Assembly (NCBI GenBank): GCA_028712695.1
Contig: JAQTQZ010000001.1
Span: forward strand, 1-64,000
Direction: 5' to 3'
Origin: Methylovulum sp.
GTDB taxonomy: Bacteria; Pseudomonadota; Gammaproteobacteria; Methylococcales; Methylomonadaceae
DNA: 64,000 bases
Shown in pieces: positions 2,111 to 8,955 of the stretch. The notes under the pieces were generated by a model that saw only the letters and a program-made list of their open reading frames with translations, was not told where the DNA came from and ran no database searches. The position numbers and the translations under genes were made by a program. Position 1 is the first letter of the stretch; each line of letters opens with the position of its first letter.

Positions 2111-4105
2111 ATGACATCGCGCCGAGAATTAGCGAATGCCATACGCGCTTTGAGCATGGATGCCGTACAAAAAGCAAACTCTGGACATCCGGGCGCGCCT
2201 ATGGGTATGGCTGACATCGCCGAGGTTTTGTGGAACGATTTTATGTCTCACAATCCGACTAATCCAAAATGGTCGAATCGTGATCGTTTCGTTCTTTCTA
2301 ATGGGCATGGTTCAATGCTTATCTATTCGCTGTTACATTTAGCGGGATACGATCTGCCTATTGAAGAATTGAAAAGTTTTCGTCAATTGCATTCTAAAAC
2401 ACCCGGACACCCTGAGTATGGTTATGCGCCTGGTGTTGAAACAACAACTGGGCCTTTAGGCCAGGGTATCACTAATGCTGTTGGTATGGCAATTGCTGAA
2501 AAGGCATTAGCTGCTCAATTTAACAGAAATGGGCATAGCATTGTTGATCATAAAACTTATGTATTTATGGGTGATGGCTGCTTAATGGAAGGTATATCTC
2601 ATGAAGCTTGTTCATTAGCAGGAACACTCGGATTAGGTAATTTGATTGCGTTCTGGGATGACAATGGAATCTCAATTGATGGTCATGTAGACGGGTGGTT
2701 TACAGACAATACACCAATGCGTTTTGAGTCATATGGCTGGCATGTTCTTTCTGATGTTGATGGTCATGACCCTCATGCAATAGCTAAAGCAATTGAAATG
2801 GCTGTGGCTATGACTGATAAGCCAACGCTGATTTGCTGTAAAACTACAATAGGTTTTGGATCGCCAAATAAAGCAGGTTCTCATGCTTGCCATGGCGCTG
2901 CATTAGGTCAAGATGAAATCAATCTAACTAAAGCGGCGTTGGGGTGGGAGCATGATGCGTTTGTGATTCCAGCTGAAGTCTATTCTGGCTGGGACGCTAA
3001 AGCAAAAGGAGCTAAAGCTGAGGCTGAATGGAATGATAAGTTCGCCGCCTATAAAGCTGTATATCCTGAATTAGCGGCTGAATATGAACGCCGTATGATT
3101 GGTGATTTGCCTGTAAATTGGGCAGCAGACGCTGATGAATTTGTTAGTGCGGTAAATGCTGAAGCTAAAACAACTGCTACACGTCTTTCTTCATTGGCAT
3201 CTATTGATGGATTCGCAAAATTATTGCCAGAAATTTTTGGTGGTTCTGCTGATTTAGGTTGCTCAAACATGACTGAATGGTCAGGTTATAGGCCGATGCG
3301 TGCTAACAAACCAGATGCCAACTATATTAATTATGGTGTCCGTGAATTTGGTATGTCGGCGATTATGAATGGCCTTGCTTTGCATGGTGGAGTGATCCCA
3401 TTTGGTGCAACTTTCTTAATGTTCTCTGAATATGCACGTAACGCATTGCGAATGGCTTCTTTGATGAAGATTCGCTCAATATTTGTCTACACTCATGACT
3501 CTATAGGTCTAGGTGAGGATGGTCCTACGCATCAACCGATTGAACAAACTGCTACATTACGTTTAATTCCTGGTATGCAAGTTTGGCGTCCATGTGATGC
3601 TGTTGAAACAGCAGTGTGTTGGAAAGCGGCGATTGAGCGTAAAGATGGTCCATCTGTATTAGTATTCTCACGTCAAAATTTAACTCATATGCCTCGTACA
3701 CAAGAGCAGATTGGGGCTATTTCTCGTGGCGGCTATGTGTTAAAAGATACGGATGGTCAACCTGATGCGATTATTATTGCTACCGGTTCAGAAGTTGAGT
3801 TAGCAGTAAAAGCAGCAGAAGAGTTAGCCGGTAAGGGTAAAAAAATCCGCGTTGTTTCAATGCCATCAACTAATATTTTTGATGTGCAGGATACAGCTTA
3901 CCGCGAATCAGTGTTGCCGTCTTGTGTAACTAAGCGTGTAGCAGTTGAAGCTGGGGTAACTGATGGTTGGTGGAAGTATGTAGGAACGAATGGTCGGATT
4001 GTAGGGATTGACCGTTTTGGAGAATCGGCTCCTGCAGGCCAACTTTTTAAAGAGTTTGGTTTCACTGTTGAAAATGTAGTCAATAACGTAGAAGCAGTGC
4101 TTTAA
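2111..4105 (+). CDS. tkt: Transketolase
   Basis: Thiamine-diphosphate enzyme moving two-carbon ketol units in the regeneration arm of the RuMP and pentose phosphate cycles. The 664-residue product is full length. Visible family marks are the N-terminal HPGAPMGMA and NGHGSMLIY motifs, the ThDP/Mg motif [13 protein letters not shown] to WDDN at about residues 155-190, and the C-terminal [12 protein letters not shown] stretch near 470 that holds catalytic histidines. A strong AAGGAG ribosome site lies just before the ATG. Two unusual repeat proteins follow in the same direction before the next terminator, so the three genes may be one transcript. Confidence 0.96.
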
Positions 4106-4124
4106 TTCTAAAACAACATTTGGA

Positions 4125-4170
4125 AGAGGCAAACAATATAACTCATCTGGTTAAATATATTAATGCCTCT
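4125..4170 (+). repeat. Inverted repeat between tkt and the first repeat protein
   Basis: AGAGGCA at 4125-4131 is exactly complementary to TGCCTCT at 4164-4170, with a 32-base AT-rich loop. There is no T-run afterwards, so it is not a clear terminator. It could lower read-through or stabilise the tkt message; this is inference. Confidence 0.35.
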
Positions 4171-4201
4171 ATCCATTTGTATAGGCTTATAGGAGAACAA
4201 C

Positions 4202-4882
4202 GTGAAAAAGAATAATTTAACAAATAGTTTGTTTGCTGTTTTGTTTCTGGCTAGTCCTTTAGTTAGTGCAGATGCGAAGTATCCCGCAGCAGATTTTCGG
4301 CCTGAAGTTGTTTATCAGGATGCTGATTATATTTCAAAAAACAGCCAGTTAAGTGAAAAAAACCTAGCTTCAGAAGTTTCGGCAGCTGATTCGAAGTATC
4401 CAGCCGCAAATTTTGAACCGCAAGTTATTTATGCTGATCCTGATTATAAGCACAGTAGCTCAACTGTTGTAGCTACAAAGTCAGTGGAAAATGAAACGAG
4501 TGTTAGTGTTAATGAAAACAATGTGCAAGCGAGTGAGACAAATAAAAAAGATAAATCATCTCCAAATTATTTAATTGGTATTTTGGGTCTTGCCGCAATT
4601 GGTGTTTTTTTGTTCAGAAAACAATTTCAATCTGGTTCTAAAGGAAGTGAGAAGAATGAATCTGTATTGAACAAAGGTGTTCAGAAACTGACAGGTGTCT
4701 CAAGGTATCTGAATAAAGTTTCTGGCACTGGCGTTTCCCGTTATTTAGACAAGCAAGTTAAGCCAGCGGTAGCTGTAACTGGTGTGGCTAAGTATGTGGC
4801 TAAGCAGGTTACAGCGACAAAAACCTCGGTAGAACAAGCAGCGGCAACTGGAGTTGAAAAATACATGCGTAACCGGGGGTAG
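4202..4882 (+). CDS. Membrane protein with signal peptide, two YPAA repeats outside and four TGVxRYL motifs inside
   Basis: Not a family I recognise. The GTG start is supported by an AGGAG site 6 bases upstream. The 226 residues show a signal peptide (cut likely after Ala23) and two copies of a 19-residue segment beginning AKYPAADF (25-43) and SKYPAANF (64-82), each ending in (V/I)Y-x-D-x-D-Y. A Ser/Asn/Glu-rich linker follows, then one membrane segment (about 122-138) closed by RKQ, then a basic tail with four motifs: TGVSRYL at 164 and 176, TGVAKYV at 193, TGVEKYM at 216. If the signal peptide is cut, the YPAA repeats are periplasmic and the motif tail is cytoplasmic. The next gene carries the same motif 11 times. 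No enzyme domain is visible; a scaffold or anchoring role is a guess. Confidence 0.8.
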   Translation: MKKNNLTNSLFAVLFLASPLVSADAKYPAADFRPEVVYQDADYISKNSQLSEKNLASEVSAADSKYPAANFEPQVIYADPDYKHSSSTVVATKSVENETSVSVNENNVQASETNKKDKSSPNYLIGILGLAAIGVFLFRKQFQSGSKGSEKNESVLNKGVQKLTGVSRYLNKVSGTGVSRYLDKQVKPAVAVTGVAKYVAKQVTATKTSVEQAAATGVEKYMRNRG

Positions 4883-4885
4883 TCG

Positions 4886-5701
4886 ATGAATGAAAAACGC
4901 TTGGGCGGATTTTTTTTTCCTGCTGTTGCAGGTCTGTTTTTTTTCTTGAATAAACCTAAAGTTGAGGAGGCCGAATTGGTTGAATATAAGGTCTATTCAA
5001 AAGATGCTAGTGGGCTTACTGGTGTTGAGAGATACTTGGAAAATCAACAGAATAATTTAAAAGAATCTGACTTTACTTGTTCGTCTGATGAAAACATAAG
5101 TAAATCTGTAGTAAGTGGGGTGGCTAAGTATCTTAGCAATCGTGATCAGTTTCCAATTACAGGCGTGACTAAATATACCATTAGGTTGGCTATAGCACAA
5201 AAACAAGAAAAACAAAAAGCCACTCAGGGTAATGAAACGGGCGTTGCCAAGTATTTAAAAAATAAAAAAAGTCCGCCTACGGTCAGCAGTGTGGCAAGGT
5301 ATTTAAAGCATCAAGAAAGCTTGCCTAAGATAAGTAAGGTTGCAAGATATATGGTAAAGAAAGCCTTGGCTGAAAAGTTAGAAGCCCGTGCAATAACTAA
5401 TACTGAGGAAACAGGTGTTGCTAAGTATTTAAAATATCAAGAAAGTTTGCCTCAGCCAAGTAAGGTCGAAAAATATATGGCTAAACAAGCTTTATTAGTT
5501 AAGTTTAAAAAAGAACAACAAATAGTTGTAAAATTTGAATCTACAGGCGTTGCTAGATATCTTAAGTACAAGGAAAGTTTGCCTCAGGCTAGTAAAGTAG
5601 CTAAATATATGGCAAGACAGGCGATTGAAGCAAAGCAAAATTTAGTCGTGCCGGTAATGATTGAGACAAGTGTTGATAGATATATGCGTACACAAAGATA
5701 A
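4886..5701 (+). CDS. Membrane-anchored protein with 11 TGVxKYL-type motifs
   Basis: Begins 3 bases after the previous gene and shares its motif, so the two act together by inference. The 271 residues have a short N-terminal hydrophobic anchor (about 7-21), then a soluble, Lys/Gln-rich region. The motif [ST]-[GSK]-V-x-[KR]-Y-[LMT] starts at residues 45, 77, 92, 118, 134, 150, 176, 192, 220, 236 and 261. Many copies come in pairs 16 residues apart, the second often SKVxKYM, giving modules of about 42-44 residues (for example 176-217 and 220-260). The spacers share YxESLPQ. No catalytic domain and no cysteine cluster are visible. The design of many short identical docking motifs on flexible, charged linkers recalls multivalent scaffold proteins; that is an analogy, not homology. 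Confidence 0.8.
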   Translation: MNEKRLGGFFFPAVAGLFFFLNKPKVEEAELVEYKVYSKDASGLTGVERYLENQQNNLKESDFTCSSDENISKSVVSGVAKYLSNRDQFPITGVTKYTIRLAIAQKQEKQKATQGNETGVAKYLKNKKSPPTVSSVARYLKHQESLPKISKVARYMVKKALAEKLEARAITNTEETGVAKYLKYQESLPQPSKVEKYMAKQALLVKFKKEQQIVVKFESTGVARYLKYKESLPQASKVAKYMARQAIEAKQNLVVPVMIETSVDRYMRTQR

Positions 5702-5747
5702 CTATATAGTTTAACTGATATAGCCTATAAAAGGCTTTTCTAATACG

Positions 5748-5783
5748 TCGAAATAAGCTAAGAGTTAGTTTATTTCGATTTTT
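5748..5783 (+). terminator. Intrinsic terminator after the repeat-protein genes
   Basis: TCGAAATAA and CTAA pair with TTAG and TTATTTCGA around a GAG loop (small bulges), followed by a T-run. A second, weaker hairpin AGCCT/AGGCT plus TTTT lies at 5722-5739. Together they close the tkt transcript before tal. Confidence 0.7.
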
Positions 5784-5884
5784 AGTTTTATATTTATCTA
5801 ATAAAATATTTACAAAGGACGCGGTTGGTAAGATCTTAAAAGCTTGCTTAATCAGATTTTTAAAATTAATTTAAGGTATTTGTT

Positions 5885-6871
5885 ATGGGAAAAGATTTAC
5901 TTGAACAACTGAAGGCCGTGACTGTTGTTGTTGCTGATACAGGCGATATTGAAGCGATTGAAAAATTCACACCGCGTGATGCAACTACTAATCCTTCATT
6001 AATTACCGCAGCTGCTCAAATGCCCCAGTATCAAGCAATTGTTGACGACACGTTAAAGACGGCAAGAGTTACTTTGGGTGTCGGTGCGTCAGCAGCTCAG
6101 GTTGTTTCGCTTGCTTTTGACCGGTTAGCAGTTTCTTTCGGATTAAAAATTCTGGAAATCATTCCAGGTCGTGTATCAACAGAAGTGGATGCCAGACTAT
6201 CATTCGATACTGATGCAACAATTGCTAAAGGTCGTGATTTAATTGCGCAATATGAGGCCGCTGGTGTTTCTCGAGATCGCGTATTAATCAAAATAGCAGC
6301 AACTTGGGAAGGTATTCAAGCCGCAGCGGTTTTGGAAAAAGAAGGAATTCACTGTAATCTGACATTATTGTTCGGCTTGCACCAAGCGGTCGCATGCGCT
6401 GAAAATGATATTACTTTAATTTCCCCCTTCGTAGGTCGTATTCTTGACTGGTACAAAAAAGATACTGGTCGTGATTCTTATGCCCCTGCTGAAGATCCTG
6501 GTGTGGTGTCGGTGACCGAGATCTATAATTACTACAAAAAGTTTGGTTATAAAACTGAAGTTATGGGTGCTAGCTTCCGCAATATCGGTGAAATTACCGA
6601 GTTAGCAGGTAGCGACTTATTAACTATAGCGCCTTCTTTATTGGCCGAATTGCAAGCTACAGAAGGTGAGTTGCAACGCAAATTAGACCCAGAAAATGCG
6701 ATAACTATGAATATTGAGAAATTATCGATAGATAAAGCAACGTTTGACAGTATGCATGCGGCAAACCGTATGGCGACTGATAAATTAGCTGAAGGTATTG
6801 AAGGTTTCGCTAAGGCATTAGAAGCACTGGAAAAATTGCTCGCTGATCGTTTAGCTAGCTTAGAAGCTTAA
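5885..6871 (+). CDS. tal: Transaldolase
   Basis: Transfers a dihydroxyacetone unit between sugar phosphates in the RuMP regeneration phase. The 328-residue product is of the classical TalA/TalB type: DATTNPSLI at 32-40, [18 protein letters not shown] at about 91-108, and [11 protein letters not shown] with the Schiff-base Lys136. It lies between a terminator upstream and fba downstream, so it probably has its own promoter in the 100-base AT-rich leader. The 93-base gap to fba has a small hairpin (ATAGCCT-CT-AGGCTAT, 6882-6897), not obviously a terminator. Length is slightly above the 317 residues of the E. coli enzyme because of a longer C-terminal helix region. Confidence 0.95.
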
Positions 6872-6964: not shown

Positions 6965-8044
6965 ATGTCACAAAAAATTTCCGATGTCGTTAAAGCTGGT
7001 GTTGTTACTGGCGAAGACGTAAAAAAAGTCTTTGCTATTTGCAAAACAAATCACTTTGCCTTACCAGCTGTCAACGTCATTAACACAGACTCCATCAATG
7101 CCGTATTAGAAGCCGCAGCAAAAGTAAAATCCGCCGTGGTTATTCAATTTTCTAATGGTGGTGCAGCTTTTGTTGCAGGTAAGGGTTTAAAATTAGAGGG
7201 TCAACAAGCGGCTATTTTGGGCGCGATTTCTGGTGCGCAGCACGTTCATTTGATGGCAGAGCATTATGGTGTGCCCGTCATTTTACACACTGACCACGCG
7301 GCAAAAAAATTATTGCCTTGGATTGATGGTTTATTAGATGCTGGCGAAAAACATTTTGCGGCAACGGGCAAGCCTTTGTTTAGCTCACATATGTTGGATT
7401 TGTCAGAAGAAAGTCTGCAAGAAAATATCGAAATTTGTGCCGAATACTTAACACGCATGTCCAAAATGGGTATGACGTTGGAAATTGAATTAGGCTGCAC
7501 AGGTGGTGAAGAAGACGGTGTCGATAATAGCGGCATGGATCATTCGGCCTTATACACTCAGCCTGAAGACGTGGCTTATGCTTATGAAGTATTGAGCAAA
7601 ATTAGTGATCGTTTCACCATTGCGGCTTCTTTCGGTAACGTGCATGGTGTGTATTCACCTGGTAATGTCAAATTGACTCCAACCATTTTGGCGAATTCAC
7701 AAAAATTTGTTTCTGAAAAATTTGGTGTGCCACACAATACCTTAGATTTCGTGTTTCATGGCGGTTCAGGCTCGAGTGAAGCAGAAATTAAAGAATCCAT
7801 TAGTTATGGCGTAGTAAAAATGAATATAGATACTGATACCCAATGGGCAACGTGGGAAGGCATTATGAATTTTTACAAGAAAAATGAAGCCTATTTGCAA
7901 GGTCAAATTGGCAACCCGGAAGGTGATGATAAACCTAACAAAAAATATTATGATCCTCGTGTTTGGCAACGTGAGGGCGAAGTCGGTATGGTGAAGCGTT
8001 TAGAGCAAGCTTTTCAAGAATTGAATGCAGTCAATACATTGTAA
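6965..8044 (+). CDS. fba: Class II fructose-bisphosphate aldolase
   Basis: Zinc enzyme cleaving or forming fructose 1,6-bisphosphate, here most likely part of RuMP sugar rearrangement and the EMP route. The product is 359 residues, the length of the E. coli FbaA type. Visible marks are the metal-ligand stretch LHTDHAAKK near residue 108, ELGCTGGEEDG near 178, and FVFHGGSGSS near 265 with a phosphate-binding loop. Its last codon and stop (TTGTAATT) form one copy of the target duplication of a MITE that lies immediately downstream, but the reading frame is not altered. Confidence 0.96.
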   Translation: MSQKISDVVKAGVVTGEDVKKVFAICKTNHFALPAVNVINTDSINAVLEAAAKVKSAVVIQFSNGGAAFVAGKGLKLEGQQAAILGAISGAQHVHLMAEHYGVPVILHTDHAAKKLLPWIDGLLDAGEKHFAATGKPLFSSHMLDLSEESLQENIEICAEYLTRMSKMGMTLEIELGCTGGEEDGVDNSGMDHSALYTQPEDVAYAYEVLSKISDRFTIAASFGNVHGVYSPGNVKLTPTILANSQKFVSEKFGVPHNTLDFVFHGGSGSSEAEIKESISYGVVKMNIDTDTQWATWEGIMNFYKKNEAYLQGQIGNPEGDDKPNKKYYDPRVWQREGEVGMVKRLEQAFQELNAVNTL

Positions 8045-8170: not shown

Positions 8171-8187
8171 TTGTAATTAGAAATGTT

Positions 8188-8955
8188 GGTAGTCCTGCAA
8201 TGGGAATGATTTGTTAAAAGTCAAGCTTGGACAAATTGTAGTGATGGACAAAATACCAGATGGCACCGATGTGGTTTTCCAGCTTTTTAGAAAAGGCCAG
8301 CGATTGCCTGGCCAAACGCGAAGCCCTGTGGCGCAGGGTGTTGTTGAACCGCCCGATGTGGTTGGTGAGGCCGCTGTCCTTACCCGCCGCGACATGGGGT
8401 CTTCCGGGAAGACCTTGGCGTAGGCCTCCCAATAGTCGGTGTGGCAAACGGCGGATTCGCGGTAGGCATCCGGCAGGGAATCCCACAAGGTCTGCGCGCC
8501 GTCCCGACTACGGTCGCCGATAAACGATCAAAGTTCGTCACATTCCAGGTATAAGCTCGCCCTGCGGTGCGGTTTCGCCTCCACCTGGCGGGATACCCGT
8601 GCATAAAGCCGGTTCACGTAATATTGCAGCCACCGCCCGGAAACCCTGGCGACACGGACTATCCCAGCCAAGGGGATGCGTTCAGGCAGCAGGCGGCCGA
8701 TCAGGCTTTTCTGTTCCGCGCTTACACGCTGTTTTTTTGGGGGTCTTGACAAAACTGGCGGCACAGGTTTTGGCAACGGTATTTTTGCCCCTGTCCCCGG
8801 GGATGGCGGTCGGTTTTTACGAGGGTGCTGGCGTGACAGTGCGTACAGTAGGTCATCGGGGCAAAAATCGGTGATTTTAGACCTTTTGATCCTCCGGTTG
8901 TAGAGCCTGTTTAACCACTTACTTTTTTGCAAATCATTCCCATTGCAGGACTACC
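8188..8955 (-). mobile_element. IS1-family insertion sequence (768 bp, inactive)
   Basis: Perfect terminal repeats start GGTAGTCCTGCAATGGGAAT (8188) and end in the complement at 8955; each is 26 bases long. The total of 768 bp equals the classic IS1 length. It encodes one decayed transposase on the minus strand. No 8-9 bp target duplication is visible: the left flank ends AAATGTT and the right flank begins CGCGTCTT. This agrees with later rearrangement, since a second copy of the left end starts only 8 bases downstream. Confidence 0.85.
8214..8856 (-). pseudogene. IS1-family transposase, inactivated
   Basis: Read in pieces, the gene starts MTYCTHCHASTLVKTD at 8856 with an InsA-like zinc-binding pattern (CxxC, then two later Cys pairs). 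It continues after a frame change at an A7 run (minus strand, 8732-8738) to the YLECDEL motif. That is followed by TGA (8528-8530) where IS1 InsB has a Trp codon (ELW). It resumes as SFIGDRSRDGAQ, and after a second frameshift near 8395 ends with SGLTNHIGRFNNTLR and FSKKLENHIGAIWYFVHHYN, which is unmistakably IS1 InsB. The A7 run could be a programmed slippery site, as IS1 uses A6C, but the nonsense codon and the second shift show the gene is dead. Confidence 0.85.

Follow-up and report, generated by a model that had tools for sequence, protein, structure and literature searches.

The carboxysome scaffolds CsoS2 and CcmM are disordered or repeat-bearing multivalent linkers encoded beside a carbon-fixing enzyme. 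The locus described here resembles them in outline, with neither shell genes nor Rubisco found among the direct neighbours in the window or in its relatives. In the pyrenoid, EPYC1 and the membrane proteins RBMP1/2 carry a repeated motif held to dock the enzyme, and further motif carriers are recruited, according to a published review (PMC10473226). The two adjacent proteins analysed here, termed A and B, resemble the Chlamydomonas Rubisco-binding-motif proteins (EPYC1, RBMP1/2, SAGA1/2) in combining a motif on a linker (the EPYC1-like B) with a membrane protein (the RBMP-like A), in a motif common to further proteins and in a client that is a carbon-fixing enzyme, here a putative one. Motif, kingdom, enzyme and pathway differ, binding is demonstrated there and proposed here, and no sequence kinship is claimed. 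The assemblies of RuMP enzymes encountered in the literature are man-made: PMC8879981 cites engineered Mdh-Hps-Phi assemblies and Hps-Phi fusions. Such constructs bring the enzymes that release formaldehyde together with those that fix it, so that capture is favoured, as the present candidate would, but they are artificial, whereas the candidate is a natural system with separate membrane scaffold proteins. In the natural HxlAB fusion (NF041755) Hps and Phi are likewise physically coupled, the difference being that the coupling is a covalent fusion. The open literature, covered by titles and the starts of abstracts and with subscription journals mostly outside that scope, gave no description of such proteins, and a text search of it for four motif strings returned no match.

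The window, i.e. the whole 64,000-nucleotide stretch of Methylovulum sp. DNA that was analysed, carries A and B within a block of RuMP genes with the following features.

787 to 1434, + strand: hps, 3-hexulose-6-phosphate synthase (TIGR03128 above cut-off; PDB 3ajx, E 9e-46)
1438 to 1971, + strand: phi, 6-phospho-3-hexuloisomerase (TIGR03127 above cut-off)
2111 to 4105, + strand: tkt, transketolase (TIGR00232 above cut-off)
4202 to 4882, + strand: gene A, open reading frame with a GTG start, 226 aa
4886 to 5701, + strand: gene B, open reading frame, 271 aa
5722 to 5736, + strand: second, weaker terminator-like site downstream of B (terminator scan)
5747 to 5779, + strand: terminator-like hairpin downstream of B, 15 pairs (3 G-C) with a T-rich tail (consensus match only)
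5885 to 6871, + strand: tal, transaldolase (TIGR00874 above cut-off)
6965 to 8044, + strand: fba, class II fructose-bisphosphate aldolase (TIGR01520 above cut-off)

The gene order, all on the + strand, is thus hps-phi-tkt-A-B-tal-fba, with the five enzymes above their NCBIfam cut-offs. Open reading frames and NCBIfam matches agree with the sequence-only reading, which had placed A and B co-directional with tkt and between hps-phi and tal-fba. Its further statement that the two genes lie between two terminators did not hold, as a scan of positions 3950-5900 located on the + strand two terminator-like sites after B, one inside B close to its start (4919-4932) and none in the gap between tkt and A; one further site lies on the opposite strand. 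Since no terminator-like site separates tkt from A, transcription of tkt may continue into A and B. Downstream of fba, positions 8177-8932 of the - strand hold broken transposase-like open reading frames that appear IS1-like by eye.

The shared feature of A and B is the seven-residue motif [ST][GSK]Vx[KR]Y[LMVT]. A six-frame scan of all 64 kb reproduced the four copies in A and 11 in B that had been counted before, 15 in total, and returned no copy beyond these two genes. The copies start at residues 164, 176, 193 and 216 of A and at residues 45, 77, 92, 118, 134, 150, 176, 192, 220, 236 and 261 of B, where the spacings are 32, 15, 26, 16, 16, 26, 16, 28, 16 and 25. Shuffled sequences gave a mean of 0.002 (B) and 0.0025 (A) motifs, with a maximum of 1 in 2000 shuffles each. 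When the DNA form of the core motif was scanned across six whole genomes, 72 of the 86 matches, sorted into carriers by hand, belonged to A or B genes, a third carrier accounted for 3 and the other 11 lay elsewhere; a reversed control pattern gave 22 matches in the same genomes, a number that the 11 unexplained ones do not exceed. The motif is therefore non-random across genomes.

Over A and B proteins together the consensus reads [ST][GS]V[AE][KR]Y[LI], its V and Y being preset by the search pattern, with minor differences between the three families of Proteobacteria in which motif proteins were followed: the window's own (f1) and two further ones (f2 and f5). Position 4 is A in f1 and f2 and E in f5, position 7 is L in f1 and f2 and I in f5, and the second position varies in relatives (G, S, K, R and others). 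Copy number ranges in relatives from 2 to 5 per A and from 2 to 20 per open frame in B. Among 30 B orthologs, which are close relatives, the commonest residue reaches a mean of 0.86 in motif columns versus 0.60 in the remaining columns, and the V and Y of the motif are conserved at 1.00. The motif is under selection. Because the motif columns are conserved while copy number is free, the pattern is the one expected for a multivalent linker. As in proteins of the EPYC1/RBMP type, a single short motif is thus repeated (15 copies, and 2-20 in relatives) along linkers whose composition predicts flexibility. Each copy may form a short N-capped amphipathic helix, in which T/S would act as N-cap and V, Y and L would lie on one face.

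Protein A displays two hydrophobic stretches, an N-terminal one at residues 6-24 and one more at residues 120-138, and comprises the following elements.

4202 to 4270, + strand: signal-peptide-like hydrophobic N-terminus, about residues 1-23 (hydropathy; cleavage site by eye)
4277 to 4330, + strand: predicted periplasmic repeat 1, KYPAADFRPEVVYQDADY (Y27, P28, A29, F32 and P34 invariant in a 30-row alignment)
4394 to 4447, + strand: predicted periplasmic repeat 2, KYPAANFEPQVIYADPDY (P67, A68, V75, D79 and Y82 invariant in a 30-row alignment)
4559 to 4621, + strand: single membrane segment, about residues 120-140 (hydropathy; low-confidence AlphaFold helix 122-143)
4691 to 4867, + strand: motif tail, copies at 4691, 4727, 4778 and 4847 of 21 nt each (motif scan)

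In the motif tail V166, Y169, V178, Y181, V195, K197 and Y198 are invariant in 30 aligned A proteins. The part between the hydrophobic stretches is acidic (pI 4.6) and the tail is basic (pI 10.2), a distribution of charge that fits a layout of periplasm, membrane and cytoplasm in this order. A would accordingly be bitopic, exposing its YPAA repeats to the periplasm and its tail of four motifs to the cytoplasm. YPAA repeats recur in other secreted proteins, so A may be a two-sided adaptor. The signal-peptide-like start and the one hydrophobic segment proposed from the sequence alone were recovered by hydropathy, which also places the motif on a membrane-anchored protein, as in the EPYC1/RBMP type; the cytoplasmic side of the tail is a charge-based prediction. 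An AlphaFold model of A built from a two-row alignment is of low confidence (pLDDT 44, pTM 0.12).

Protein B would be a linker protein with 11 motifs, its composition suggesting flexibility between them, and comprises two elements.

4901 to 4957, + strand: hydrophobic N-terminal anchor, LGGFFFPAVAGLFFFLNKP (residues 6-24 by hydropathy)
5018 to 5686, + strand: motif array, copies at 5018, 5114, 5159, 5237, 5285, 5333, 5411, 5459, 5543, 5591 and 5666

The short hydrophobic start agrees with the N-terminal anchor that had been assigned to B. Residues 12-20 (PAVAGLFFF) are 97-100% conserved in 30 orthologs, and the N-terminus ranks among the most conserved parts of the protein. The start of B in f5 differs, reading by eye about M[SN][EDN]KG[FL][FL]ASIC.[FL][FL].GLFSS, and is also amphipathic-looking; some B proteins of f5 are small and bear no more than 3-4 motifs. 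The best Pfam-A and NCBIfam matches of A and B of the window are far below the curated cut-offs, and two f5 B types, one f1 B and one f2 A gave no Pfam match above cut-off.

Linkage of these genes to RuMP genes was present in relatives in all three families. In f1, 28 of the 29 genera sampled have A or B within a RuMP block; the one that does not, g5, is represented by one genome, 77% complete, whose fetched matches are other carriers. The order hps-phi-tkt-A-(B)-tal-fba is kept across the family. Within 5 kb and on the same strand, the 44 f1 A loci have Tkt (44), Tal (44), Hps (41), Phi (41) and Fba (35), and the three loci lacking Hps and Phi are cut by contig ends; this tally excludes B-only loci (L094, L115, L191), other non-A loci and seven loci of genera g8 and g14 (three complete blocks and four cut by contig ends). 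The fetched f1 loci are a selection of about 1-3 genomes per genus out of 201 searched, picked by their A or B match and not by gene order. At E ≤ 1 the A query matched 200 of the 201 f1 genomes, some matches possibly being partial or other carriers, and the sole genome without one (G105) is 73% complete; the B query matched 185 of the 201 at E ≤ 1. Where B occurs apart from A, it usually lies behind another tkt, phi or hps copy (L087, L092, L094, L097, L111, L115, L183, L194).

Gene order differs in f2, where A lies upstream of hps-phi. On the same strand and no more than 5 kb away, 14 of the 15 A loci have both hps and phi, 7 have tkt and 5 have tal; this tally draws on 15 of the 28 matching genomes and excludes L266 and L277-L280, which were fetched as other motif or repeat carriers, none of them with RuMP genes. 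One A gene (L268) has no hps within its 12 kb. Matches to the A profile at E ≤ 1e-3, with either half of A counted, occurred in 28 of 38 genomes, at least one of which (G641) holds a short repeat protein only, and the other ten gave no match at this threshold. The RuMP block is present twice in a single-contig f2 genome (L264), with A in both copies; the M. capsulatus genome paper describes these RuMP genes as directly repeated, and its accessible part makes no mention of such a motif protein (PMC517821). In the f2 genome G336 (L156) A is found in two tandem copies, each apparently split over two frames at the motif tail.

A third arrangement is observed in f5, which is probably Methylophilaceae. 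The order hps-B-tal-hps-phi was found in the 23 fetched loci (of 45), one of which is cut at its start by a contig end. All 21 scored loci have Hps no more than 5 kb away, and tkt was not found in these 21 blocks; the tally excludes L252 and L259, whose variant motifs were missed by the open-reading-frame filter and which, read by eye, encode a motif protein flanked by hps and tal. A short B-type gene, defined as a frame of 60-233 aa as against 838 aa and more and sorted by hand from the rows, is present in 45 of 57 f5 genomes, with an Hps gene at most 1.3 kb away in all 45. Hps itself is present in 50 of the 57 genomes, and none of the seven Hps-less genomes has the short B-type gene. Five genomes have Hps and no B: the completeness of four of them is 55-77%, and the contig of the fifth stops at hps.

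The expected link with RuMP genes thus held, with the refinement that hps and phi are the steadiest neighbours, found in nearly every locus across the three families, while tkt is less steady (7/15 in f2 and 0/21 in f5). Tkt as the main partner is weakened by the f2 counts (tkt 7/15 and tal 5/15 versus 14/15 for hps and phi) and by its absence from the scored f5 blocks.

The association extends to the level of the class. In an even draw of 369 genomes, Hps (E ≤ 1e-30) was present in 6, and the A profile (E ≤ 1e-3) matched in the same 6, namely two of f1 (one being the window's own), one of f2 and three of f5. The chance of this exact coincidence is about 3e-13 under the assumption of independent genomes, a figure that overstates the case, since the six fall in three families and hence are not independent. 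The pMMO family (PF02461) was found in none of 14 f5 genomes tested, and G544, a genome from the same order as f2, carries pMMO but neither Hps nor an A match. An origin of the association in methane oxidation or internal membranes is rejected on the strength of f5, with Hps and motif and no pMMO found, and of G544; because the link persists in f5, it is to RuMP and not to methane oxidation or intracytoplasmic membranes. Distant Hps proteins on 153 plasmid records, all below 60% identity, are accompanied by no A match in that collection, and the one plasmid Hps region inspected has no A/B-like neighbour. The motif genes are thus tied to formaldehyde fixation far more strongly than was apparent from the window alone. 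That motif proteins track hps, with phi, in three families with differing gene orders is expected if the motif binds Hps or Hps-Phi; a shared need for expression could also explain the linkage to hps, and adjacency could mean shared regulation alone.

Formaldehyde is both carbon source and poison for these bacteria. Its production is periplasmic and its fixation cytoplasmic, and its hand-over between the two compartments is, to our knowledge, not settled. Older work reportedly describes a particulate (membrane-bound) Hps in Methylococcus. The explanation we favour, and consider somewhat better than evenly supported, is that the two proteins act as a multivalent docking scaffold, tethered to the membrane, for the section of the RuMP cycle that fixes formaldehyde. 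It builds on the motif arrays, their selective conservation, the linkage to and co-occurrence with hps and the hydrophobic segments, and from these proposes that the motif is helical, how the proteins lie in the membrane, that the motif binds and to which enzyme, that clusters form and that formaldehyde capture benefits. Each motif helix would bind weakly to a RuMP enzyme, most likely Hps and perhaps Hps-Phi, around which the remaining RuMP enzymes would gather. Oligomeric enzymes would be cross-linked by B, whose basic, flexible linker bears as many as 20 copies. A would tether the resulting cluster to the inner membrane on its cytoplasmic side, the presumed site of formaldehyde entry, such that formaldehyde from the periplasmic methanol dehydrogenase might be captured before diffusing away. 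With a dedicated scaffold encoded next to hps in three proteobacterial families, the hand-over of formaldehyde would become directly testable. If real, such a scaffold would constitute a bacterial C1 counterpart to the linkers of pyrenoid and carboxysome, and a natural part for synthetic methylotrophy as opposed to the artificial Mdh-Hps-Phi assemblies.

Hps residues peculiar to the motif-bearing lineages outlined no clear patch for motif binding. A set of 92 motif-linked Hps proteins has 26 positions with conservation of 95% or more that differ in two PDB outgroups, of which 22 also occur in all three presumed Hps-Phi fusion paralogs; Q177 is the only candidate position that differs in all three presumed fusions. 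The window's genome encodes a second Hps (G000:C4:44860-45495) in a 416-aa frame that is probably an Hps-Phi fusion paralog.

The linkage to hps and the co-occurrence with it would equally be expected if A and B regulated or stabilised Hps (or Hps-Phi), with motif binding altering activity or assembly and no clustering taking place, and the small f5 B proteins, down to 3-4 motifs, suit such a role. CP12 is a comparable regulator of Calvin-cycle enzymes. Such a function would make 10-20 equal copies unnecessary, sits poorly with a copy number that differs widely among orthologs and, if allosteric, requires no membrane anchor, so that we regard it as unlikely. A docking scaffold is preferred as well over a motif that is an amphipathic helix binding the membrane or itself, to build a membrane-shaping or condensate layer whose place in the RuMP block reflects joint expression. 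The basic linkers, the hydrophobic N-termini, the helix-like V..YL spacing and the existence of other membrane proteins with a motif tail (a Sel1 protein and f2 L266) all point in that direction. That the arrays track Hps and not pMMO, and that B lies behind extra hps, phi and tkt copies, would be left unexplained, and the invariant Y and V with [ST]G indicate a specific partner; this alternative is accordingly judged quite improbable.

The motif is not exclusive to RuMP loci, since carriers outside them exist. In f5, a ChpA-like hybrid kinase of 2049 aa has no RuMP neighbours (L162 3748-9894, - strand, genome G360); its Hpt, CheW and receiver domains refer to G360 alone. This kinase and open reading frames of about 840-2065 aa in other f5 genomes contain 3-4 motif copies, and in the Hps-less f5 genomes G576, G585 and G614 the motif match falls in frames of 1288-2065 aa, presumed to be the ChpA-like kinase. 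Soluble-looking Cys/His proteins with 4-5 motifs (L160 6875-7672, L192 2737-3516 and L196 5661-6353, all on the - strand) display a conserved C-terminal part, CQA.T..G.QCK ... VC.QH.N, and have no Pfam or NCBIfam match. A Sel1 protein of genus g22 (L186 6312-7040, L187 5835-6566 and L188 980-1711, all on the - strand; Sel1 by Pfam on L186) begins with a signal-like sequence and also has a hydrophobic segment and one or two motifs in its tail, representing a second bitopic motif carrier. Motif carriers without RuMP neighbours are present in f2 too (L266, L277, L278, L279). These extra carriers may be recruited clients or may indicate that the motif has a partner of more general kind. The least credible of the alternatives, that the motif is a general tag for a cytoplasmic adaptor (e.g. 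a polar or structural protein) with RuMP enzymes as one client among several, draws on the f5 kinase, on the long frames of the Hps-less G576, G585 and G614 and on the other non-RuMP carriers, and is made very doubtful by the confinement of class-wide A-profile matches to Hps-bearing genomes and by EPYC1-type systems, which recruit extra motif carriers via the enzyme itself (PMC10473226).

Within the docking-scaffold explanation, a more elaborate version, which we hold to be rather unlikely, would make A a trans-membrane adaptor whose YPAA repeats dock methanol dehydrogenase or a partner and whose motifs dock Hps, B extending this into a cytoplasmic Hps condensate, the whole forming a formaldehyde metabolon that spans the inner membrane and couples production with fixation. 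The YPAA repeat is found in small secreted proteins of relatives (L125, L163-L170, L198), including one in the window's genome (G000:C52:24885-25103; L125 6799-7104, - strand). The small protein has 2-3 YPAA repeats and ends in KV[IV]YP. In L125, L164, L167, L170 and L198 it is encoded behind three ABC transporter genes, recognised by family search in L125 (Ssu/Tau-like) and by eye in the other four, while L168 has other neighbours. Together with the SRPBCC protein and the pqq-like genes described next, this distribution suggests, as a hint from sequence, a periplasmic partner tied to methanol oxidation. A secreted SRPBCC protein with C-terminal YPAA repeats (L171 5353-6132, + strand, G086) matches in Pfam only Polyketide_cyc2 and presumably resembles MxaD. 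In L125, pqqB/pqqC-like genes, named by eye, lie a few kb upstream of the YPAA/ABC operon.
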